Assembly (NCBI GenBank): GCA_949524905.1
Contig: CATINC010000007.1
Span: 310,001 to 374,000, forward strand
Length of the DNA stretch: 64,000 nucleotides
Origin: Opitutia bacterium UBA7350
GTDB taxonomy: Bacteria > Verrucomicrobiota > Verrucomicrobiia > Opitutales > Coraliomargaritaceae
Direction of reading: 5' to 3'
Part shown: one piece after another, positions 27,205 to 40,224 of the stretch
Layout of the letters: every line of letters begins with the position of its first letter
Numbering within the stretch: position 1 is the stretch's first letter
Notes under the pieces: generated by a model
What the model was told of the DNA's origin: nothing
The model's input: only the letters and a program-made list of their open reading frames with translations
The model's database searches: none
Translations under genes and position numbers: made by a program

Positions 27205-28608
27205 ATGAAAGAAGTTGCCCTAGAAAGTCTCGACCCTCGATTGCAAAAGCAGGTGCAGAATGCCAGCAAGGCCATCAGCAAAAACCCTGTCTATGCCGTT
27301 GATATTTTATCCAATATTATTCAACGCCATCCTGGTTGCCTAGAAGTACGCCGCGACCTTCGCAAGGCGCAACAGCGCGCTACTCAAAATAAATCGGGTG
27401 GCTTGTCGGGCCTGATGTCAAAAGTCAGTGGCTTTGGTAGGAGCTTTCGAGCACCAAAAGTTGAAAAGGATCCCCAAAAAGCACTAGAGGCTGCCGAAGA
27501 AATGCTGTGTTCCAACCCTGGAAATATTGCCGCTCATGAATTACTAGGTGAGGCCGCTCAGGCACTCGAACTCAACGAAACCGCCGCTTTTGCCTATGAG
27601 GAAATTTATCGAATCGAGCCCGCAAATACCGAGAACGTCAAAGCGCTTATGGAAGCCTACATCTTAATCGGTAAAAACGAAGAGGCCATTCGCATCGGTG
27701 AGGCTGCCTATCGCGCTAATCCAAATGATGACGGCATTCAGATGCTCGTTAAAAAAGCATCCGTTGAACAGACTGTTGATAAGGGCCGTTGGAATGAAGA
27801 CGAGAGTTTCCGCGACAAGTTAAAGGACGAAGACGAAGCTCAAAAGCTTGAGCAGGCTAGCCGAGCAAAGACCGGCGATGCAGGCTTGCGTTCGCTCATT
27901 AAGGATGCCCTCGAAGCAGTGGAGGCCGAATCCGAAAATATTAATTTGTATCGCGACATTGCTTCCAATTATCGTAAGTTGGGTGAGTTCGACAACGCCT
28001 TGGAATGGATCAACAAAGCCCGCCAGTTAGATGGCGGTAAAGCGGACGTCAATCTTGAGCGCACCGCTTCTGCACTACAGCGCGAAAAGATGCAGGCTGC
28101 AATACAGGCACAAGAGGCCATCCTTGAAAAGGATCCTGAAAATTTAGATGCAAAGGCTGCTCTGGAGTCTATTCGAGGGGAGGCGCACGCTATGCAGCGC
28201 GAGCAATCCGAGCACCTTGTCCAGCGCTATCCTAATGAATTCAGCTATCGTTATGAGTTGGGTGAAATTTACCTTAAGGACAATGAAATTGATGCTGCCA
28301 TCAAGGAACTACAATTGGCTCAGCGCAGCCCCAAGGTGCGTGTTCAGGCGCTTATCTTACTCGGTAAAGCCTACAAGCAAAAAGGCTTCTTTGATCTTGC
28401 GATTGAACAATTTGGTAGTGCTAAGAGAGAAATTTCTGGAGTAACGGATGCCAAGAAGGACGTCCTCTACGAACTTGGTAAATGTTATGAATTGCAGGGT
28501 AATATGGACAAGGCCATCGCAGAGTATAAAATCCTTTATGCTGCTGACATTGCTTTTCGCGATGTCGCTCAAAAGATCGACGACTTTTACTCCAAGAAAA
28601 ATGGGTAA
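27205..28608 (+). CDS. TPR-repeat protein, function unknown
   Basis: Soluble protein of 467 residues without a signal peptide. It is made of TPR units from about residue 85 to the end, for example ALEAAEEMLCSNPGNIAAHE, YRKLGEFDNALEWINKARQL, and KGFFDLAIEQFGSAKREISG. A Gly/Ser-rich linker (about residues 60-80, GGLSGLMSKVSGFGRSF) separates an N-terminal helical pair from the repeats. No enzymatic domain is seen; a scaffold role is a guess. Synonymous codon choice (frequent CGC, GAC) looks similar to highly expressed neighbours. It precedes an AI-2E family permease by 59 nt. Confidence 0.8.
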   Translation: MKEVALESLDPRLQKQVQNASKAISKNPVYAVDILSNIIQRHPGCLEVRRDLRKAQQRATQNKSGGLSGLMSKVSGFGRSFRAPKVEKDPQKALEAAEEMLCSNPGNIAAHELLGEAAQALELNETAAFAYEEIYRIEPANTENVKALMEAYILIGKNEEAIRIGEAAYRANPNDDGIQMLVKKASVEQTVDKGRWNEDESFRDKLKDEDEAQKLEQASRAKTGDAGLRSLIKDALEAVEAESENINLYRDIASNYRKLGEFDNALEWINKARQLDGGKADVNLERTASALQREKMQAAIQAQEAILEKDPENLDAKAALESIRGEAHAMQREQSEHLVQRYPNEFSYRYELGEIYLKDNEIDAAIKELQLAQRSPKVRVQALILLGKAYKQKGFFDLAIEQFGSAKREISGVTDAKKDVLYELGKCYELQGNMDKAIAEYKILYAADIAFRDVAQKIDDFYSKKNG

Positions 28609-28667
28609 GCTTGGTGCTGCCACAACCAATGCTCGACAGGCGAAGTCGAACTAGCAGTTAAAGTATT

Positions 28668-29729
28668 ATGCAGATAAAACAAGTAGCCTTGATCATGTTT
28701 GTGGTCTTCTTGTCGTTCTACTTATTGAACCTCGGGCAATCAATTTTGCTTCCTCTCGTGATTGCGGGCGCAATTGCATTTTTGATCAGTGCGCTCGTGT
28801 ATGCTATAGGTTTGATTCAAATAGGAGGTATTCGCTTGCCCAAATTCCTTACCTTTGTGTTAGCGGTCATCCTTATTATCGCGTCTTTCACTTGGGTTAT
28901 CCAAATGATCACGGACAACGTTGCTCATGTTATTAAACAAGCTCCGATTTACCAAGACAACCTTGAGAGTCGTATCAATACCATTTACGCAATACTTGGC
29001 TTAGAGCAATCACCCAGCGTTACTGAAATTTTGAAAAAGATAAGCTTGAGCGGTTTTTTGCAGAATCTTGCTAAAACATTAAGTGGTCTCGCAGGTAGTG
29101 CGGGCATCATCTTTGTTTATCTCATTTTTATTATCCTGGAGCAACGCACTTTTGGATCGAAGATTCGGGCTCTCTTTCCGCAGCCTGAACAACAGGCAGC
29201 CGTGTTTAATCTGATGCAACGTATCAACCAAGACATCCGCACCTACGTCGGCATTAAAGTCCTCACGAGCACAGTTACAGGGGTGCTGAGTTATTGCGTT
29301 CTTGAATGGGTCGGGGTTGATTCTGCCAGTTTCTGGGCAGTCCTTATTTTTCTTCTAAATTTTATCCCTACAATTGGATCGATTATTGCGACCGCCTTTC
29401 CGGCTCTCTTAACTTTAGTACAATTTGAGACGTGGGCTCCATTCTTCATTGTGGCGATTGGGATAACTGCAATTCAGTTTTGCATGGGAAGCATCCTAGA
29501 GCCCCGTCTGATGGGCAGTAAATTAAATGTAAGCCCCCTGGTGCTGCTGCTCTCCCTTGCCTTATGGGGTTCAGTTTGGGGCATACCGGGAATGTTTCTC
29601 TGCGTGCCCATCACCGTAATGATTGTCATCGTTTGTTCTTATTTTCCGCAAACTCGCGCTTTAGCAGTCATCCTCTCTGGTGATGGCACCCTATCGGCAG
29701 GTTCCCATGCGGAGACTTCAGATGATTGA
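28668..29729 (+). CDS. AI-2E family transporter (PerM/TqsA type)
   Basis: Inner-membrane protein of 353 residues with about seven transmembrane helices and the family layout: two N-terminal helix pairs, a soluble segment (residues about 85-140), then GIKVLTSTVTGVLSYCVLEW, FWAVLIFLLNFIPTIGSIIA and GSILEPRLMGSKLNVSPLVL. The NFIPTIGS and EPRLMG motifs are diagnostic. Members export varied small molecules or ions; the substrate here is unknown. Its stop overlaps the start of the SBF-like gene by 8 nt (ATGATTGA). Confidence 0.9.
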   Translation: MQIKQVALIMFVVFLSFYLLNLGQSILLPLVIAGAIAFLISALVYAIGLIQIGGIRLPKFLTFVLAVILIIASFTWVIQMITDNVAHVIKQAPIYQDNLESRINTIYAILGLEQSPSVTEILKKISLSGFLQNLAKTLSGLAGSAGIIFVYLIFIILEQRTFGSKIRALFPQPEQQAAVFNLMQRINQDIRTYVGIKVLTSTVTGVLSYCVLEWVGVDSASFWAVLIFLLNFIPTIGSIIATAFPALLTLVQFETWAPFFIVAIGITAIQFCMGSILEPRLMGSKLNVSPLVLLLSLALWGSVWGIPGMFLCVPITVMIVIVCSYFPQTRALAVILSGDGTLSAGSHAETSDD

Positions 29730-30681
29730 TCGGCTACGACAGCACTGGTTTACTTTAGGTCTCTTTGGAGTCGTCATTGTTTCGCTTTCAGGTTTCGGCC
29801 TTCCTTTAGGCACCGTGATTATTCCAATCGGGGTATGGATTATTTTCCTGGCGCAAGGAGTGATCTTAGGCGAAGGCTCCCCCCATTCGGAACAAAATTG
29901 GTGTGGGACTCTTACGTTTGTTCTCTGTTGGAACTTTTTATTGTTTCCTCTTGTGACGGTTGGGTTGCTTTGGGTGACCGGTCTTTGGGAGCAAAGTGAT
30001 TTTGCTTTTGGTTACTGGCTGCTGGCTTTTCTTCCAACTACGATTGCCTCCGCGGTTGCCATGACTTCAGGGGCTGGGGGACGAGTAGAGCATGCCTTGC
30101 TCGCCACGGTGAGTTCTAATCTCTTTGCTGTATGGCTGGTGCCGATGATCGCAGTCTTTTATCTGGCGATTGAAGCTGAAATTGAAATTGCCCTTTGGCC
30201 CCTGGTCCTTCGTCTCTTAATTCTTATCGTACTTCCGCTTCTTATTGGCTACGGCCTTCGGCGATTCCAATTTCCTGGAACCGCTAAACTGGCAGGTGTT
30301 GCTCGCCCATTAACACAGGGCATTTTATTGTTGATTCTGTTGGTGGCCTTCTCGCGCAGCTTTACTTCGGGGGAGTTAACGGGGCTAAATTTTGGCGCAT
30401 TGCGTGAATTGTTACTTGTATGCGGCGCCCTTGTACTGCTTGTCAGTGCGCTTGTTTGGTTCAGTGCTGGTAGATTTCATTTCAGTTACCACGAGCGCAT
30501 AAGTGTATTTTATTGCGCAAGCCAGAAATCTCTTGCTACGGGAGTGCCCATGATTGGTTCGGTACTGCTTGCTGTTGGTCCAGAAAATGCCAGTGCGATT
30601 AATTTACTTCCCATTCTTTGCTACTCGCCAATGCAGTTGCTTCTCGGGGGGTACCTTGTTCCATATTTTTCGAGGCAGTAA
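29722..30681 (+). CDS. Bile acid:sodium symporter-like (SBF-like) transporter
   Basis: Membrane protein of about 319 residues with nine to ten hydrophobic helices. The signature FLPTTIASAVAMTSGAGGRV followed by SSNLFAVWLVPMI matches the SBF-like branch (YfeH type) of the BASS superfamily, and CASQKSLATGVPMIGSVLL is the second inverted-repeat crossover. The frame is open from 29680, but ATG 29722, overlapping the end of the previous gene, gives the natural N-terminus MIDRLRQHW. Substrate unknown. It ends 3 nt before the rsmB stop on the other strand. Confidence 0.88.
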   Translation: MIDRLRQHWFTLGLFGVVIVSLSGFGLPLGTVIIPIGVWIIFLAQGVILGEGSPHSEQNWCGTLTFVLCWNFLLFPLVTVGLLWVTGLWEQSDFAFGYWLLAFLPTTIASAVAMTSGAGGRVEHALLATVSSNLFAVWLVPMIAVFYLAIEAEIEIALWPLVLRLLILIVLPLLIGYGLRRFQFPGTAKLAGVARPLTQGILLLILLVAFSRSFTSGELTGLNFGALRELLLVCGALVLLVSALVWFSAGRFHFSYHERISVFYCASQKSLATGVPMIGSVLLAVGPENASAINLLPILCYSPMQLLLGGYLVPYFSRQ

Positions 30682-30684
30682 TTG

Positions 30685-31974
30685 CTAGTTTTCGGCCTGC
30701 AGTAAAAATGCACCAGCGCCATCATGACCTGTCTCCCAAGGAAAGCTAAGGGATTGATCTTTCAGTTTAAAATTTGCTCCAGCGGGGCTTTTAAGGAAGG
30801 CTTTGACGATCTCAATATTTTCGGAGGCCTCAATACTGCAGGTGCTGTAAACGAGACGTCCACCGGGCTTAACAAATTGACCAGCAGCAACCAAAAGTTC
30901 GCTTTGAATTTTCGCGCAGGCTTTCAAATCTTTGGCTTGAAGTCGCCACTTAACATCCGTGCGGCGTTGGATTACGCCCGTGTTACTACAGGGGGCGTCT
31001 AGAAGGACTGCATCAAATGCAGAAGGGTAGTTATTTTTGCTTAGGTCAGTCGGTTGCAAGGTAAGAAGGTCGTGCGCCAAACTCTTACAAACGAGAGCTT
31101 CGTTTTCCATCCGAGCAAGGTTTTGATTCAGGCGTTCCATTCGTTCGCCGGGAAGATCGAGCGCTAGGAGTAAACCTTTTCCATTAAGACCACGCGTGAT
31201 TTCAAAAGCTTTACCACCCGGGGCAGCGCAAAGATCAAGAACGGTTTCACCGGGTTGAGTATTCAGTAGGGCAGGGGCAAGGCGAGTCGAGGGGTCTTTG
31301 ACGTAGGCACGTCCAGACTCAAGGAAGGGGCGTATGCGTTCCAACCAGGGTTCATGGGTGGGTGCGCAATAAAAACCGGGCCATTGAGTCGCTTCAAAAG
31401 GAGCGGGGAGGGCTTCCTCGCTGCGAATATAGGTGGTTGGAATTTTCTGGTTCCACTGAAGGAGCGCTTCGCAATCCGAGGCCTTAAATGCATGAGCCCA
31501 ATGCTCTACCAGCCAACTCGGATGGCTAAATCTATGGGCTGGAGCTAAGTGATTCTCTTTAATTTCGACAAAAACAGGTGGGAGTTTTCGAAGAACAGCA
31601 TTGATGAGAGCACTCTCAGGCTTACTGACCCGAAGTTTACTGCCCTGTACTGCGTGGTGTATTATTTTAGGTATTTTTTCTTCGGGAGCTTCGTATAATT
31701 CATAAGCAGCTACCAAAAAAATAGCCTCAACCGAGGTTCGAGGGGTTTTGCGTAGGAATGGGTTTAGGGCGGCGCGGGTACGGTGTCCGTGGCGCAAAGC
31801 ACCTAAAAAGAGTGACTGGCAGGTCTTGCGGCGACCTCCGTGAAACTCACTCGGTAACTGTTCTAGAAGTTGATCTGCCTTCCATCCGCCAGCTAGATAA
31901 GCATCGGTTAATAAAACAGCAGCCTGCCACGCGGTTGCGCTTGTTTTGGATAAGTCAAACTTAAGGCTTCTCAT
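30685..31974 (-). CDS. 16S rRNA (cytosine-C5) methyltransferase, RsmB-like
   Basis: SAM-dependent RNA m5C methyltransferase with an N-terminal NusB-like RNA-binding domain (residues about 1-140) and a C-terminal Rossmann methyltransferase. Motifs: DLCAAPGGKAFEITRGL (SAM motif I), LLDAPCSNTGVIQRRTDVKW with the PC cysteine, and YSTCSIEASENIEIVKAFL with the catalytic TC cysteine. The frame is open upstream to 32031, but ATG 31974 (MRSLKFDLSKTSATAW) matches the family start. It is divergent from the giant greA-like gene with 59 nt between starts. Confidence 0.9.
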   Translation of the reverse strand: MRSLKFDLSKTSATAWQAAVLLTDAYLAGGWKADQLLEQLPSEFHGGRRKTCQSLFLGALRHGHRTRAALNPFLRKTPRTSVEAIFLVAAYELYEAPEEKIPKIIHHAVQGSKLRVSKPESALINAVLRKLPPVFVEIKENHLAPAHRFSHPSWLVEHWAHAFKASDCEALLQWNQKIPTTYIRSEEALPAPFEATQWPGFYCAPTHEPWLERIRPFLESGRAYVKDPSTRLAPALLNTQPGETVLDLCAAPGGKAFEITRGLNGKGLLLALDLPGERMERLNQNLARMENEALVCKSLAHDLLTLQPTDLSKNNYPSAFDAVLLDAPCSNTGVIQRRTDVKWRLQAKDLKACAKIQSELLVAAGQFVKPGGRLVYSTCSIEASENIEIVKAFLKSPAGANFKLKDQSLSFPWETGHDGAGAFLLQAEN

Positions 31975-32033
31975 AGAGGTAAAAATACTGCAATGTATAA
32001 CGTTAACTACCTGACTAGCATTCGCAAACAATT

Positions 32034-33896
32034 ATGAACGAAGCGGCCATAGACGCACTAATAGAAAATAACCCCAAGTTAGCGCCCTCACGCGCTAAGC
32101 TGGAAAGCATGGCGCCGGGCAATTACTGCCTGCACCGTAGCTGGGGTTTTGGTAAAATTGTAGATTTTGATGAGGCGCAAGCCAAGATCGTGATTGATTT
32201 TGAGGAAGGAGAGAAGACCGGACATGCAATGGGGATCGCGTTCTGTGTTGATAAATTGGAAATCCTCAAGCCCAATGATATTTTGGTGCGCTCACGAACC
32301 GAAGTAGATGCTATTGAAGAAATGATCAAGAAGGCCCCTGCAGACCTTATCTGCGAAATTCTCTCTGGGAACGAAGATAAAGCAATGATGGCATCCGAAA
32401 TAGAACGCTCTCTGGCTCGCGTCATCGGGCCGCTAAAATATAAGAAATGGTGGACTGCCACCAAGAAGGTCTTGGAAAAAGATCCGCGCGTGGGTGTACC
32501 CAACAAAAAGACCGAACCTTTTATATTTCGCGATGAACCCGTAAAGCCAGAGGAGGAAATTCTTGAGCAATTTCACGGAACGCGCAACTCCAAGGAGAAA
32601 ATCCTCCTGGGGGAAAAGCTATTTGCACTTTCAGAAAACATTTCCGTCATTCGTGAGGAATTGCCTGAGATTCTCGCGGAATTGACGGATGCAATTCAAA
32701 ATACCAAATCACTCAGTCAAGCAGACCGTCTACACGGAGTTTGGGTTCGAAATGACCTCGCTCGTGATTTGCATGAGGATGTGGAATTACTTGAACCGTC
32801 TTCTGCTTCGATTCTGGACTCTACAAATGATTATTCAGAATTAGCCTCAGAGTTACCTGCTAATTTCTTTAAGCGTTATTTGGATCTGATTCGCCGTACC
32901 TATGAAGACAAATGGCAACCCATGCTTGAAGACCTCCTCCGCAACTCTAGCGGTAAGTTTACCAGTGAATGTATTAACTTCATGATGGAACATGGTATGG
33001 ATGCGCGCATTGCGCACTGCCTAAGCCGTTGGCTTAATGACCAAACAATTAAGGGGCCCTTACTTCTGTGGGTGGTTAAAAACCGTAATTCTAAAAAGTA
33101 TTCAGCGATTATTGCGCCTTTGGTCTCTCCACGCTTACTCTCTGCAATGTTCTATGCCATTGACTATGAAGCCCTGCAAAATGCCAGCGCACGTCGCATC
33201 CCTCTCGCTGATCTCTTGAGTGAGGATGGTGAGTTGATTCCGGATTTGTTAGCAGATTCCAACGTAGAAACCGCACAAGACCTTGCCCAAACGCTCTTAC
33301 TTAACCAAGGCTTTGAAGATTTGACAAAAAAATCACTGGTTGCTCGCTTTATTAAGAAATTCCCCACGGTTCAGACTTTGATCGCCGGTGAAGGCTCGAG
33401 CACTTCTGAGGAGGATGGACTCATTGTTTCACAAGCTAGTTTTGATGCTGCTAAAGCAGAATATGAAGGTCTTATTATGGTCAAGATTCCCGAAAATAAA
33501 GAAGCGATTGCTACGGCACGTGAACATGGTGACCTCAAGGAAAATTCCGAATATAAGATGGCACGTCAGGATCAAGACATTCTGCTTTCTCGCAAAAACG
33601 AGCTTGAAGTCGATCTTTCCCGTGCTCGCGTAACTGATTTTAATGAAGTTACCAACGACAACATCGGCATCGGTAGTATGGTTGAATTAAAGGAAGGCTC
33701 GAGTGGTCAGACCCAACGCTACGCAATCCTAGGTGCATGGGATTCCGATCCTGAAAATAACATCCTTTCCTATAAGACCCCTTTAGCTCAGCAATTATTG
33801 GGTAAAAAGAGTTCAGACACTGTAACCATTGAGGTGGGTGGAAATACTCAAGACTGGACAGTCTTGAAGATTGAACGCTGGGTGGACCAAAAGTAG
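32034..33896 (+). CDS. greA: Giant GreA/GreB-type transcript cleavage factor with about 460-residue N-terminal extension
   Basis: The last about 160 of 620 residues form a complete GreA: coiled-coil hairpin with TAREHGDLKENSEYKMARQD and the acidic tip D500/E503, then the C-terminal FKBP-like domain ending TVLKIERWVDQK. Gre factors enter the RNA polymerase secondary channel and stimulate cleavage of backtracked RNA. The remaining N-terminal part has a small beta-rich module around residues 27-75 (LHRSWGFGKIVDFDEAQAKI) and a long helical region. Ordinary GreA has about 158 residues; Chlamydia is known to have a similarly enlarged GreA. No standalone greA is seen here. Function of the extension is unknown. 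Confidence 0.9.
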   Translation: MNEAAIDALIENNPKLAPSRAKLESMAPGNYCLHRSWGFGKIVDFDEAQAKIVIDFEEGEKTGHAMGIAFCVDKLEILKPNDILVRSRTEVDAIEEMIKKAPADLICEILSGNEDKAMMASEIERSLARVIGPLKYKKWWTATKKVLEKDPRVGVPNKKTEPFIFRDEPVKPEEEILEQFHGTRNSKEKILLGEKLFALSENISVIREELPEILAELTDAIQNTKSLSQADRLHGVWVRNDLARDLHEDVELLEPSSASILDSTNDYSELASELPANFFKRYLDLIRRTYEDKWQPMLEDLLRNSSGKFTSECINFMMEHGMDARIAHCLSRWLNDQTIKGPLLLWVVKNRNSKKYSAIIAPLVSPRLLSAMFYAIDYEALQNASARRIPLADLLSEDGELIPDLLADSNVETAQDLAQTLLLNQGFEDLTKKSLVARFIKKFPTVQTLIAGEGSSTSEEDGLIVSQASFDAAKAEYEGLIMVKIPENKEAIATAREHGDLKENSEYKMARQDQDILLSRKNELEVDLSRARVTDFNEVTNDNIGIGSMVELKEGSSGQTQRYAILGAWDSDPENNILSYKTPLAQQLLGKKSSDTVTIEVGGNTQDWTVLKIERWVDQK

Positions 33897-33910
33897 GACG
33901 CTGGGCTTGG

Positions 33911-33932
33911 GCTTGACCTATAGCGGTCAAGC
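33911..33932. repeat. Perfect 8-bp inverted repeat between greA-like gene and doxX
   Basis: GCTTGACC (33911-33918) and GGTCAAGC (33925-33932) are exact inverse complements around a 6-nt loop TATAGC, 15 nt after the greA-like stop and 15 nt before the DoxX start. No T-run follows on either strand, so it is not a standard terminator. It may be an operator or an RNA hairpin. Confidence 0.6.
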
Positions 33933-33947
33933 AACAAAATATCGCTC

Positions 33948-34370
33948 ATGAAAATACCTGTATTTTTGACGAATACGAGCTCCACCTTTGCACTCCTGCC
34001 CCTGCGACTGGGTTTAGGGATCAGCATGATCTACCACGGTTCAAAAAAATTATTTGGCTGGTTTGGTGGTAATGGGCTTGAGGCAAGCACCGCATTTTTT
34101 GCTAAGCAAGGTCTCGAGCCGGCCTTGCAGTTGGTTTTGTTAGCAGGTGGCGCACAGGTTGTTGGAGGGATTGCTTTTATTTTAGGTTTTGCCACTCGTT
34201 TTTGGGGGGCGGTCATCGCGTTTACCATGGGTGTGGCAGTGTATACGGTTCACGATTGGCAATCTTGGGGCGACAGTGAGAAACCCATGTTAATTTTGCT
34301 GGGAAGCCTAACCCTGATGCTTGCGGGTGCAGGTAGATTGTCGGTCGATTATAATTCTCAAAAAGTTTAA
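33948..34370 (+). CDS. DoxX family membrane protein
   Basis: Small inner-membrane protein of 140 residues with four hydrophobic helices. The DoxX pattern is visible: [20 protein letters not shown], a short amphipathic stretch [17 protein letters not shown], then [20 protein letters not shown] and [20 protein letters not shown]. The family is linked to redox or thiol stress in some bacteria, but the biochemical role is unsettled. Its TAA overlaps the tsaE stop on the other strand by 4 nt (TTAA). A perfect hairpin lies just upstream. Confidence 0.88.
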
Positions 34371-34807
34371 GGCATTCTCAAGCGGAGGGTGTGTTGTCCT
34401 TCACGAGAACTTGCAAGGTCAAGATGCCAGGCTTCTGGGGGGATACTTTCAGGGATCCGCTCAGGCCATTCCACCGCGAGGCACCAGGGGGATTCTAGAA
34501 ATTCCTCCAACATGAGCGCATCCAGATCGGCACCGGATTGCAGTCGATAGGCATCTAGATGCATCAATTTTCGTTCACCTTCATAGAGGGTGTAGAGGTT
34601 GAAGGTAGGGCTCGTTACAGGTTCTTTAATGCCCCATGCGCGGGCAAGGCCACGTACAAGGGTGGTTTTACCCGCACCGAGTTCGCCATGCAGTGCCAAC
34701 ACGTGATCCTGAGGCAGGCAGTCTGCGAGGGCGGCACCAATCGACTCAGTTTCCTCAACGCTCTGGCTGGTAATGCCCGTACTTAACTGTTTTAGAATTT
34801 CAGACAT
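34367..34807 (-). CDS. tsaE: tRNA threonylcarbamoyladenosine biosynthesis ATPase TsaE
   Basis: ATPase subunit of the TsaBDE complex that makes t6A at position 37 of ANN-decoding tRNAs. P-loop [40 protein letters not shown] and the C-terminal [15 protein letters not shown] are typical. The frame continues upstream to 34981, but the ATG at 34807 ([11 protein letters not shown]) gives 146 residues, the family length, and overlaps the thiL stop by 8 nt. Last gene of the leftward mnmA-xth-thiL-tsaE operon. Confidence 0.94.
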
Positions 34808-35792
34808 CACGTTTCCAATGTTCGTAGCCGTAGGTCCAGGGAATGGATGCACCGCTTTCCTTTTCGATGAAAACTCCGGCAGGATGTTTAGATATGATTT
34901 GCCCGATTCGGGAAAGCCTGAGATTAGGAAATTCAGCCTGCCAGCAAGTTTCAAATCGTCCACAATCTGCATCTGCTGCAACTGCTAACAGAAGTTCGTA
35001 ATCTTCGCCGTCGCAAAAGGCGTGTTGCAGGGCAGGCTTTCCGGTCTGAAGGCCGAATGCTTGAGCAGCCTCATCAATGGGAATAGAGTTTAGGTCTATT
35101 GCTGCACTACTATCGTTCGGCAGAAGAACTTGTAGGTCCTTGCCGAGTCCGTCGGTTAAATCCATCATAGCGCGGCAAGCGTCTTGGGCGGCAAACCATT
35201 GACCTTCCGCCAGCCTGGGATCAAAGCGAAAGTGCTTACCAAGGATGCTGCCTCCCAAGGTTCCGGTAGTATAGAGCCAATCGCCAATGGACGCATTCTG
35301 CCTTAAGAGAGGGCGTTTGCAGCTGCCTAAAAGTGTGAGGCTAGCGGAAAATTGCCCGGCTGGAAGGGTACTTAAATCACCACCAACAATTTTGAGCGTA
35401 TGTGCTACGCAGGCAGAACGAACGCCTTTAAAGAAAGCTTTAAGCCATGCTAGGGCGAGGTCGGGACCGCTGAGTAAGGTAAGGACGGCACTCTGAGGCT
35501 GAGCTCCCATGGCGGCAAGGTCGCTGAGGTTTCGGTGGATTAGTTTTACTCCGGCTTCAAAGGGTGTCACGGTAGCGTCAAAGTGTTGCCCGTACGATAT
35601 CGCATCGGTCGTGATGCAAGTTTTTTGGGTGGCGTCTAATTCCATCACAGCGCAATCATCTCCTATGCCGGCGGGTGCAATGGGAGTCGTGTCGCCTAAC
35701 CAATTGCAGATATGCTCAAGGAGGATGCATTCACCAAGGCCGCTTATTTGCTGAGCCGGATCATGAGTAAAAGGATATGTTTTTGAATCCAT
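34800..35792 (-). CDS. thiL: Thiamine-monophosphate kinase
   Basis: Phosphorylates thiamine monophosphate to the active cofactor thiamine diphosphate. Signatures: [20 protein letters not shown] (GDD metal/ATP site), [47 protein letters not shown], and [15 protein letters not shown] with [12 protein letters not shown] near the end. The ATG at 35792 (MDSKTYPF) overlaps the xth stop by one base (TAATG), which favours it over the upstream in-frame start at 35822. Downstream tsaE overlaps its 3' end. Confidence 0.94.
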
Positions 35793-36580
35793 TAGAGGGT
35801 TAGGTGCAAGCTGACGGGGCAATGGTCAGAACCTTCTACCTGATCTAGGATATCGGCAGTTTTGAGATTTGGAAGTAGTTTTGGGGAGGCGCAGAAATAA
35901 TCAATACGCCAGCCAATGTTGCGCTTACGAGCTCCTGCACGATAGGACCACCAGCTATAGCGTTCAGCGGTATCAGGATAAAAATAGCGAAAGGTATCTG
36001 TAAATCCTTCTTGGAGGATTGCATCGAAGCCTGCGCGCTCCTCGTCTGTAAAACCTGCGTTACGGCGGTTCGTTTTAGGGTTGGCGAGGTCGATTTCTTT
36101 ATGGGCGACATTGAGGTCGCCACAGAAAATGACCGGTTTTCCCTCTTCCAGTTTTTTGCAATAGTTAAGGAAGTCTACATCCCATTCAAGGGTGCGGTAA
36201 TCGAGTCTTCGAGGCCGTTTATTTTCGTCATGGTTCTGGGAATTGGGCGTATAGACTGTTACGAGAAAATAGTCAGAAAATTCCGCGGTCAGAACCCGAC
36301 CTTCGGTATCGTGTTTTTGAATGCCGATGCCTTTTTTAACTGAAAGAGGCGCATCACGACAAAGGAGAGCCGTGCCGGAGTACCCTTTTTTTTCGGCGCA
36401 ATTCCAGTAAAGGTGTGGGTAGCCTTCAAAGGCAAAATTTGCGACTAAATCGTCGGATATTTTGGTTTCCTGAAGGCAAAGTACATCCGGTTGCTCAGCG
36501 GCAAGGAATCCTTCAAAGCCTTTTTTGATAACAGCGCGGAGACCATTAACGTTCCATGAGATCAGTTTAATTTCTGGCAT
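35792..36580 (-). CDS. xth: Exodeoxyribonuclease III
   Basis: AP endonuclease and 3' repair exonuclease of the ExoIII/APE1 family. Catalytic motifs are complete: [26 protein letters not shown] (metal Glu), [26 protein letters not shown] (Asp/Asn pair), and [11 protein letters not shown] with the terminal catalytic His. Length 262 residues is standard. It is 8 nt downstream of mnmA and coupled to thiL by a one-base overlap. Confidence 0.95.
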
Positions 36581-36588
36581 GAGAGAAT

Positions 36589-37659
36589 TTATTTGTAGAA
36601 ACCGCCACCAAGAAGCGTGTCTTCACGATAGAGGGCAAGAATTTGTCCAGAAGCAAGTGCGCGTTGGGGTTCGTCAAAAACAACGTGTGCGGTGTCATTA
36701 CCGGTAGGGGTATAGGTAATTTTTTGAGCTGGGTCTCGATAGCGAGGTTTTGCAAGGAGTTGGCAGGATTCTGTGAGGGCTTCATTGATAAAGCTTAATT
36801 TGGAAACTTCTACTTCATCGGTGAAGAGGCCGGGAGCATCTGGTTTATCAAAAGCGACGACCAGTTCATTGCGCTCAAGGTTGAAACCCACGACCACGAA
36901 AAATTGATGGTCGGTATTTGATGGAACTCCAATGCCGCGGCGTTGACCGACAGTGTATCGATGTAAGCCGCGATGCTCCCCAAGAACTTTTCCCTCTGGG
37001 TCAACAATTTTTCCGGGTTGATCTTCAATATAATATTCAAGGAAGCGATTAATATTCATATCGCCCAGGAAGCAAATCCCCTGACTGTCTTTTTTGGTAG
37101 CGTTGGGTAATTTGAATTTTTCGGCTAGTTTGCGTACATGGGGTTTTTGAAGTTCGCCAATGGGAAAAATTGCGGGAGCAAGTTGTTCCTGGCGCAGGAG
37201 GGCCAGGAAGTAGCTTTGATCCTTATTGGGATCAAGTCCTTCGCAAAGATCAAAGTTGCCGTTAGCTTGTTTTACCTTGCGAACGTAATGGCCAGTGGCG
37301 ATGGCATCAAAGCCCTGCTCGCGGGCGTAACTTTCAAAAATCCCAAATTTCATTTCGCGATTACACATAATGTCGGGGTTGGGCGTGATGCCCTGACGGT
37401 AACCTTCAACTAAGTATTGTACGACATGTTCGCGGTACTCATTAACGAAATTAACGATTTCATAATCGATACCCAAGTGCTTTGCAAGCGCACGAGAATC
37501 TTCGATGTCTTGTTGTGCAGGACAGTCGGCCAGGGGCATTTCTTCATTCATCCAAGTGCGGATGTAGGCACCTGCGACTTGATGACCTTGCTCCTTGAGC
37601 AAGGTAGCCGCCACGGCAGAATCAACGCCGCCGGATAGTGCTACTAGAATTTTTTGCAT
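36589..37659 (-). CDS. mnmA: tRNA-specific 2-thiouridylase MnmA
   Basis: Puts sulfur on U34 of tRNA for Lys, Glu and Gln. The PP-loop [20 protein letters not shown] is at the N-terminus. The catalytic cysteine pair is present in [13 protein letters not shown] and [29 protein letters not shown] and the C-terminal beta-barrel complete the pattern. Length 356 residues is normal. It heads the leftward operon mnmA-xth-thiL-tsaE and is divergent from the pullulanase gene with 133 nt between. Confidence 0.95.
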
Positions 37660-37791
37660 AACTTTAGGAAAACAGGCGAGGGGAGACAGTCAACAAGCGT
37701 TGGCGCTACGGAGTTTTTTGAAGGAAAAATCTACCCTTTCCTGCGAATGAGGATTGCAGGTAGTGCTGCGAAGTGGCGATAATAGAAAAGT

Positions 37792-40224
37792 ATGTCGAAG
37801 GATACGAAACAGTTAGAGGCAGCCTTTTGGGAAGACGAAAGGTATGCGCTCGTTTTTTTGGGAGCGGATTTGGATCCTTTGGCAGAAAATCCACCTCTCA
37901 GCCTGGGGCCAGGCGGGACTCCCTTTGCTTCTATAGAGTTGTTAGCTCCGGTAAAAGCAGCACGTTATACCCGATATTACCGGGATGGGGATAATTGGGT
38001 TTTTCGTTTACAGGCGGAACGTTATCCCCAGTTGCAGGACTCCACCCTAAAGATCTACCTCGGAGCAGATTTTAATGGATGGGATGCGGCAATTGGTTTG
38101 AAGCAATGGCAACTAAATCCGTACCAGATTGAGGATACCTTAATTTACGAGTTAAAAGTCGATGCAGAGGCGATACCGAAGAATAGTCCTTCAGCCTTTA
38201 AATTTGCTACGGAATCCGGAGAATGGCTGGACGTGCCAGAAGGGGCACCTAATCTTACTTTAACAAAAGGCGGAATCCCAAATTTTAAATTGAGCCCATC
38301 ACAAAGTGGAGCACACGTTTGTCGTTGCCAGTTGCCGAAGTCGTATCAGCCCATGGGTGCTGAATCGATAATGTGGCAAGATGCTACAAGTTATACCTCC
38401 ATAGAATTGCCACATACACAGCACCTCACGGAAGCATTCACGAATTTGGAGTTGGGCGCTCAGATTCTCGATGGAGTAACGCGTTTTCGTTTATTCGCGC
38501 CGCGAGCGCAAGCAGTCCATGTTGTATTTGGGCAGAAAGAAGATAGCTCGGATGCCCATGCGGTCGAACTGAAGCGAGTGGATGCCTCGACTTGGGAGGC
38601 CGTCGTTGAAGGTGAATTAGAGGGTTGGTTTTATAGTTATCGTGTTGCCGGTGGCAATGATGATGGGACGACACATTTTGACGCGCATTTTTCAATTTTA
38701 GATCCATATGCAAGGGCCTGTTTAGGGGCGCGCGGACCTGGTATTGTACTTGCAGATGCTCGTACGGAGTCGGTAAAGCGGCCATATGAGCCGCCACATT
38801 GGCATGACCTCGTTATTCTTGAGGGTCACGTGCGTGACCTCACGGTAAATGCGCCTATAGGTTTAAGTCCTCAAGAGCGCACTGGATACGCAGGTTTACG
38901 TAAATGGTTGTGCGCAAAGGGATCTTATCTGCGGGATTTGGGAGTCAATGCATTGGAGCTACAACCGATTCAGGAATTTGATAACGAGTTGCCATTGGAT
39001 TATCACTGGGGCTACATGACCGTAAATTATTTTTCACCAGAAAGTAGTTATGCCATCACTCCGCTCAAAGCCTCACAAGTGGAAGAATTTCGAGGATTGG
39101 TGAATGATTGTCACGAGGCTGGTATGGCGGTGATTCTTGACGTGGTTTATAATCATGTGGGAGAACCTAACCACTTACTCTTCCTCGATAAGTATTACTA
39201 TTTCCATTTAGACCAGGCGAATGAGTTGGTAAACTGGAGTGGCTGTGGCAACGACTTGCGCTGCGATACCCCCATGGGTCGCCGACTGATTCTCGATAGC
39301 CTTAAACATTTGGTGCGTACCTACGATGTGGATGGTTTTCGTTTTGATCTTGCGGAATTGATCGGCATGGAAGTGTTACGTGAAATTGAAGACGAATTGA
39401 AGTCGATCAAGCCAGGTATCATTCTCATTGCAGAACCTTGGAGTTTTCGTGGGCACATTCAGGATGAGTTAAAGGATTCCGGTTTTGCTTCTTGGAATGA
39501 CGGCTTCCGAGAGGGAATTGCGGACTATGTCCGCGGACAAGGTCAACAGGAATCAATTCGTTATTTTCTTTCGGGCTCACCAGAAACAAGTCGCTTTGCG
39601 GCTCAAAGTATAAATTACACGGAATCGCACGATGATCATTGCTGGCTGGATCGCATCACTGAACGACCTGGGCAGGATGGATCAGATCCCACGGTCCTAG
39701 ACCGGCGTCGTACGCATTTGATGGCCGCAATATTGTTTGGCTCGCTAGGCGTCCCGATGTTGGCGGCTGGGCAGGATTTTTTGCGTTCAAAATGTGGGGT
39801 AGCAAATACCTATCAGCGCGGCGATCTCAATGCGCTCGATTACAATAAACGTTATGTGTATTCTGGAACGCATCAGTATTTCCGAGATTGGATTCATTTT
39901 CGCCGTTCAGATGAGGGTAAAGCATTGCGTGTTGATGGTGTGCTTTCTGAGGGCTACATGCAGTTTTTCTTTTGTGAGGGTTCCAGTGCAGTGCTTGCGC
40001 TCTTTAATGCCGATGGTTCTCGGGACATTAAGCGGGTAGTTTTAGGCATCAACCCACACCTTGAATTTGCAAACATTGTGGTGCCAGAAGGTTTGATGGG
40101 GGGTCTGCGGCAAGTGGCTGATGCGGAACGTTTTGATGACCGCGGACTTGGGCTAGCAGATATCCCGCAATCAGGGACACTCGTTAGTTTGCCGCCCATA
40201 AGTTGTGGGCTTTGGGTGGGTTAG
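37792..40224 (+). CDS. Cytoplasmic pullulanase/glycogen-debranching GH13 enzyme with extended N-terminus
   Basis: Hydrolyses alpha-1,6 branches in glycogen-type glucans. The GH13 barrel motifs are clear: [14 protein letters not shown] (about residue 450), [16 protein letters not shown] with the nucleophile Asp (about 515), [12 protein letters not shown] with the acid Glu (about 547) and [15 protein letters not shown] (about 610). Upstream are a CBM48-like module around residues 220-300 ([20 protein letters not shown]) and another beta-rich starch-binding-like segment near residues 85-115 ([16 protein letters not shown]). There is no signal peptide, so it is probably cytoplasmic. The stop overlaps the PEP-CTERM gene stop by 4 nt. 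Confidence 0.9.

Follow-up and report, generated by a model that had tools for sequence, protein, structure and literature searches.

The window, a stretch of 64,000 nucleotides from contig CATINC010000007.1 of Opitutia bacterium UBA7350, carries a long greA gene whose 620-aa product consists of a complete GreA at the C-terminus and a long N-terminal extension (Table 1). The GreA part contains the coiled-coil hairpin, matched by Pfam GreA_GreB_N (PF03449; E 4.4e-18, 65.7 bits against a curated cut-off of 24.5), and the FKBP-like domain, matched by GreA_GreB (PF01272; E 3e-20, 72.4 bits against a curated cut-off of 26.9), and reaches 140.6 bits in the NCBIfam greA model TIGR01462, with a cut-off of 139. 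In the fold comparison, the GreA part aligns with 9a7t (Z 16.5) and with E. coli GreA (1grj; Z 16.1, rmsd 2.9 over 150 residues), with which it has in common the hairpin with its D/E tip and the FKBP-like C-terminal domain. D500 and E503 are invariant in an alignment of 24 sequences, and we take their role to be that of D41 and E44 in E. coli GreA. The initial sequence-only reading had placed such a hairpin and an FKBP-like end at the C-terminus of a 620-residue protein, and Pfam and the alignment bear this out. E. coli GreA, in contrast, has 158 aa and no extension (from an excerpt of PMC10995303).

The open reading frame is not the product of a frameshift or of a chance fusion of two genes, as full-length relatives exist at 92 to ~41% identity, with no internal stops. 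In 45 of the 47 relatives, the start methionine is positioned as in the 620-aa protein, an agreement that is biased upward because the starts were picked by their distance to the Tudor motif; the exceptions are L049, whose front end differs, and L048, which was cut back to a Met further downstream. The genome (1.67 Mb, completeness 99.97) was also searched for a second standalone greA, as the sequence-only reading had advised, and no further GreA match was found.

Upstream, rsmB, of a 16S rRNA methyltransferase family, forms a divergent pair with the long greA gene, the two lying two bases apart by their longest frames; the true rsmB start is probably further in. The rsmB gene lies near long greA in 86 of 109 loci. 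Downstream, a DoxX-family membrane protein is encoded at 33948-34370 (+), an arrangement seen in only 4 of the 109 loci. No Rfam match was found within 28000-38000.

Table 1. Positions in the window of the long greA gene, its predicted domains and key residues, and the neighbouring gene.
Feature	Position	Strand	Basis or remark
rsmB (16S rRNA methyltransferase family), divergent neighbour	30685..32031	-	context only, outside the mechanism
long greA gene, 620 aa	32034..33896	+	ATG start; sole GreA of the genome
Tudor-like barrel, residues 25-80 (GNYCLHRSWGFGKIV...)	32106..32273	+	model, Foldseek, VIA-align, hhalign, Pfam
H34..W37, at PcrA H681/W684 positions	32133..32144	+	alignment, conservation
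H64 and M66, at PcrA K712/L714 positions	32223..32231	+	position counted from the Phe preceding the final strand
winged-helix domain, residues 82-168, basic helix YKKWWTATKKVLEKD	32277..32537	+	model, VIA-align, charge
HEAT-like alpha-solenoid, residues 169-453	32538..33392	+	AlphaFold2 model, fold comparison
flexible linker, residues 452-460	33387..33413	+	pLDDT < 50
GreA N-terminal coiled-coil hairpin, residues 464-533	33423..33632	+	Pfam, conservation
acidic tip D500/E503 of the GreA hairpin	33531-33542	+	alignment
GreA C-terminal FKBP-like domain, residues 540-614	33651..33875	+	Pfam, fold

Predicted domains of the N-terminal extension

The AlphaFold2 model of the full protein has a mean pLDDT of 87.5 with a single low-confidence stretch, the linker, and a pTM of 0.58, at which the placement of the domains relative to one another is uncertain. 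Profiles of the whole extension and of residues 1-168 found no relative among PDB sequences. Residues 1-168 were folded alone, because the VIA-align rows for the whole model left them uncovered; this separate model, built with 41 sequences, reaches a mean pLDDT of 95.4 and a pTM of 0.85. It comprises a two-helix lead-in (residues 3-25), a five-stranded barrel with the Tudor fold as judged by Foldseek and VIA-align (strands 31-34, 38-46, 51-56, 64-67 and 75-78), and a winged helix. The β-rich module described by the sequence-only reading is thus real, with five strands in the model, but the first 75 residues assigned to it divide into the lead-in and a barrel at ~25-80. The middle of the protein, likewise, is helical in the model as that reading had it, but a separate winged helix (82-168) had been lumped into it.

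In the predicted model, residues 25-80 look like the RNAP-binding Tudor of UvrD/PcrA and CarD. The top two Foldseek matches are UvrD/PcrA Tudors, 7egt with a TM score (target) of 0.85, rmsd 1.5 and E 0.042, and 5dma with 0.73 and E 0.045; all E-values exceed 0.04 (none is below 0.001), and the domain spans only ~50 residues. At lower ranks follow the Sgf29 and PHF Tudors, which are histone readers, as well as Spt4/5 and CarD. In VIA-align, residues 25-78 match CarD (4kbm) at Z 7.0 (53 aligned, rmsd 1.7) and UvrD/PcrA overall at Z 6.4-6.6. Among the latter is 7egs, in which the UvrD CTD was determined together with the lobe of E. coli RNAP, at Z 6.6 (52 aligned, rmsd 2.0).

Sequence comparison was carried out on a set of 41 sequences, comprising the 620-aa protein, 21 relatives picked from the 47 to cover their range, and those translated loci (19 of 39) that entered by a match to the 1-168 profile (E < 1e-20). 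The 41 Tudor segments align with the PcrA CTD in hhalign at probability 87.6 and E 3.5e-6 (one comparison), and residues 1-168 align with one E. coli UvrD CTD at probability 0.5 and E 0.11, in the right register. In Pfam, the 41 segments give weak matches to DUF3553 (31/41), to PcrA_UvrD_tudor (PF21196; 16/41, best 0.0031) and to CarD_TRCF_RID (4/41, best 2.6e-4), the last equalled by Tudor_KDM3B (4/41), with no other family above 4/41. The Tudor of the 620-aa protein itself scores 15.4 bits against PF21196, under the cut-off of 23.9. Against the PDB, a Tudor-only profile places the UvrD1 and PcrA Tudors at E 0.96 and 1.5, behind the unrelated 7ar9_o at 0.017; with matches this weak, sequence search alone could not prove the UvrD/PcrA link. 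Across the whole genomes of 19 relatives, the GreA Tudor is the best DUF3553 match in three (G040, G041 and G038), always under the family cut-off, and not in the other 16, while the single significant place of the Tudor profile is the long GreA in all 19.

Four residues of PcrA, H681, W684, K712 and L714, were mutated when RNAP binding was tested (excerpt of PMC5397179). The PcrA segment ANHRKWGIGTVV corresponds to CLHRSWGFGKIV here: the His and Trp are retained as H34 and W37, whereas K712 and L714 are changed to H64 and M66. Among the 41 sequences, which were in part selected for their profile match, H34 is conserved in 34, W37 in 41, and H64 and M66 in 39 each. The barrel therefore has in common with the C-terminal Tudor of PcrA/UvrD (5dma, 7egs, 7egt) the fold, the H..WG.G motif and two of the four residues; it differs in the Lys/Leu to His/Met changes and in its position, on the N-terminal side of GreA instead of at the C-terminus of a helicase. 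The RNAP-interaction domain of CarD and Mfd has a similar Tudor-like barrel, yet its sequence match is weak and its protein context different. The suggestion that the β-rich module could contact RNAP is supported by the predicted structure and the key residues, short of proof.

The winged helix (82-168) aligns best with forkhead domains in VIA-align (6xat, Z 9.1). It also aligns with the N-terminal domain of RNAP δ (2krc; Z 7.6, 78 residues aligned, rmsd 2.8), although forkhead domains score higher and HARE-HTH is absent from the Pfam families listed for the 41 members. DUF7599 is matched by 7 of the 41 (Pfam, best 6.8e-4), and the best matches of a winged-helix profile in the PDB are designed repeat proteins. 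Residues 131-165 carry a net charge of +6, compared with -3 in the Tudor segment, and K144, K145 and K149 (24 sequences) as well as K137 (41 sequences) are nearly invariant. The following solenoid (169-453) looks HEAT-like, matching the HEAT domain of eEF3 (2ix8) at Z 9.3 over 83 residues, middling Z values being common among repeats; the longer matches, many of them importin and adaptin, come at high rmsd. Its residues W346, D377, D398, E412, D416, G426, F427, K432 and R438 are invariant in 24 sequences.

Distribution of long GreA and the state of UvrD and RpoB

The named relatives belong to Opitutales/Puniceicoccaceae of the Verrucomicrobiota, the phylum covered by the genome surveys. A whole-protein search finds the protein in 50 of 57 relatives, and an extension-only profile matches 288 of 383 Verrucomicrobiota genomes. 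The GreA hairpin is present in 381 of the 383, with exactly one match in 360, more than one in 21 and none in 2. Among the matches listed, the frames exceed 600 aa except for those of 486 (G132), 512 (G269) and, at a contig edge, 252 aa (G379). A rare, strain-specific fusion is rejected on these counts: far from being rare in the phylum, as the sequence-only reading had allowed, long GreA is the rule among the Verrucomicrobiota genomes surveyed; of the PVC-wide range which that reading proposed, the surveys cover the Verrucomicrobiota.

Two sets of 20 loci were sampled, the first taken mainly from lineages without a match to the extension profile and the second from lineages with one; 39 of the 40 yield a frame in which the GreA tip motif is present. 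Two groups from the first set (10 and 8 sequences) align by hhalign from residues 21 and 7 to near the end with probability 100; since the GreA part dominates these E-values, the front part shows colinearity and not independent proof. In the deep-lineage families f36, f41, f59 and f62, the barrel region aligns and the extension is kept, with the WG.G motif lost; L161, L166, L173 and L176 are deep-lineage long GreAs of this kind, with the extension and without the WG.G motif of the barrel. The 486-aa frame of G132 (L172) combines GreA with a solenoid-like region and lacks the Tudor, which may be a natural loss or an assembly fault. Extra frames of 136-152 aa in three genomes (G003:C66, G004:C98 and G011:C18) match GreA residues 523-615 only and are perhaps Rnk-like secondary-channel proteins. 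A contig of 3,696 bases in a Dehalococcoidia MAG (L117) bears an Opitutales-like long greA extension at 53% identity and is probably misbinned.

The name of one NCBIfam family already describes a fusion of GreA with an unknown domain. The full protein scores 178.3 bits against NF004969/PRK06330, 'transcript cleavage factor/unknown domain fusion protein' (718 positions, equivalog cut-off 697), and 261.6 bits against NF011309/PRK14720 (906 positions, equivalog cut-off 714); scores so far under the cut-offs indicate homology to these families and not membership. We take PRK06330 to be the chlamydial form and PRK14720 to come from other bacteria, such as spirochaetes. Residues 1-168 alone, without GreA, match PRK14720 at E 8.7e-22 and PRK06330 at E 3.6e-16, colinear and below the curated cut-offs, and residues 1-456 match them at E 2.9e-29 and 1.4e-19. 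The relation to the presumed chlamydial type of long GreA, on which the sequence-only reading had made its case depend, thus holds for the N-terminal part. By itself, segment 169-456, the solenoid, has no match among NCBIfam families, and an adenylosuccinate synthase match (E 0.03) was judged to be chance. Both models are colinear with the 620-aa protein over ~580-590 residues, a span that takes in the Tudor and the winged helix; they hold ~110 (PRK06330) and ~280 (PRK14720) additional positions before the Tudor. A 2024 review remarks on the unusual size of the GreA of C. trachomatis (CTL0004), 715 aa, and suggests that this protein may not be comparable to E. coli GreA in function (excerpt of PMC10995303). 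It is large like the long GreA here, and its size agrees with the 718 positions of PRK06330; the likeness is drawn by length and by way of that family, presumably chlamydial.

The helicases of these bacteria and their RpoB differ from those of the PcrA system. The PcrA_UvrD_tudor profile matches none of the 19 relatives and none of 193 Verrucomicrobiota genomes, with 8 of 14 control genomes positive. UvrD_C helicases are present in all 19 relatives, and the 12 UvrD helicases inspected all stop shortly past the helicase core, without a Tudor. The PcrA Tudor binds the TGE hairpin of the RpoB SI1 domain (excerpt of PMC8318588). This hairpin reads IDESTGELI in E. coli and VDADKGVVL in the present genome. 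RpoB loci were taken from 17 distinct genomes (L230-L246), one lacking the search anchor, and 2 of the 19 genomes gave no RpoB match; in all 16 distinct stretches displayed, TGE is replaced by Lys/Arg-Gly-Val/Ile/Ala and the key glutamate is absent. With the triad altered, the GreA Tudor cannot be assumed to bind that site, and with the glutamate absent, the Tudor, if docked, would not sit at the same motif unchanged. The joint loss of the helicase Tudor and of the RpoB docking motif fits a swap of partner. Among open-licence papers, no description was found of a Tudor domain in GreA or of its tie to the UvrD Tudor, and no account that matches the absence of the helicase Tudor and of the RpoB triad with a GreA Tudor.

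A putative docking arm on RNA polymerase

The intact GreA part suggests that long GreA stimulates cleavage on backtracked RNAP. On balance, we lean towards a cleavage factor that is docked on RNAP by its own extension, as the predicted folds and conserved residues suggest. The Tudor-like domain (25-80) would bind the RNAP surface, most likely on the β lobe side used by related Tudors, and the winged helix (82-168) would give a second contact. The solenoid would bridge the distance from the docking site to GreA, and the flexible linker would give the GreA hairpin the freedom to reach into the secondary channel, where it would induce cleavage of the backtracked RNA. Long GreA would in this way remain on or near RNAP rather than reach it by diffusion. 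The Tudors of CarD and Mfd bind the β1 region (excerpt of PMC5397179), and Mfd and UvrD occupy non-overlapping sites (excerpt of PMC7585439). The δ N-terminal domain sits between the β′ shelf and jaw (excerpt of PMC7749165), so that a route starting at the lobe, passing the jaw and ending at the secondary channel is conceivable in geometric terms.

The forkhead likeness of residues 82-168, together with their basic segment and nearly invariant lysines, would also suit an arm that binds nucleic acid, the winged helix and Tudor gripping DNA or RNA near RNAP and steering GreA to templates or damage. This is unlikely, given that the nearest solved relatives of the Tudor bind protein, that the Tudor segment is slightly acidic, and that the excerpts consulted report no DNA binding by the PcrA CTD alone (PMC5397179) and protein binding by the δ winged helix (PMC7749165). 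It is more improbable that the solenoid couples GreA to another machine, such as the ribosome, repair proteins or a chaperone partner, with contact to RNAP left to the GreA part. Solenoids of the HEAT-like kind are general-purpose scaffolds for protein binding, and the invariant solenoid residues exceed the needs of a mere spacer, yet it is the Tudor and winged helix that are recognised in the long-GreA models, and not the solenoid alone.

Very doubtful is an extension without a docking role, in which the N-terminal part holds GreA inactive until a signal arrives. Gfh1, which is controlled by the orientation of its hairpin, offers a loose parallel to such autoinhibition, the flexible linker between the two halves would allow it, and a built-in switch would be useful with one GreA per genome. 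However, the arrangement of extension and GreA has no confident model (pTM 0.58), and no known regulator domain was found in Pfam or NCBIfam.

The DNA-repair helicase UvrD/PcrA pulls RNAP backwards, and GreA rescues backtracked RNAP. If long GreA is docked by its extension, the docking Tudor would be located on GreA in this phylum, instead of on the UvrD/PcrA helicase. As a tentative proposal that may well prove wrong, the docking Tudor that UvrD/PcrA bears in other bacteria could in Verrucomicrobiota belong to GreA, with the helicase lacking it and the RpoB triad changed; the activity against backtracking, and not the one that promotes it, would have become resident and docked. The swap perhaps extends to every relative that has a long GreA, Chlamydiae among them. 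Were the extension a docking arm, the puzzle of the size of chlamydial GreA would become testable. In conclusion, the proposed arrangement, if true, would mean that two factors with opposite effects on backtracked RNAP have swapped a docking module throughout a phylum, and would open a new approach to transcription-repair coupling where UvrD lacks its docking domain.
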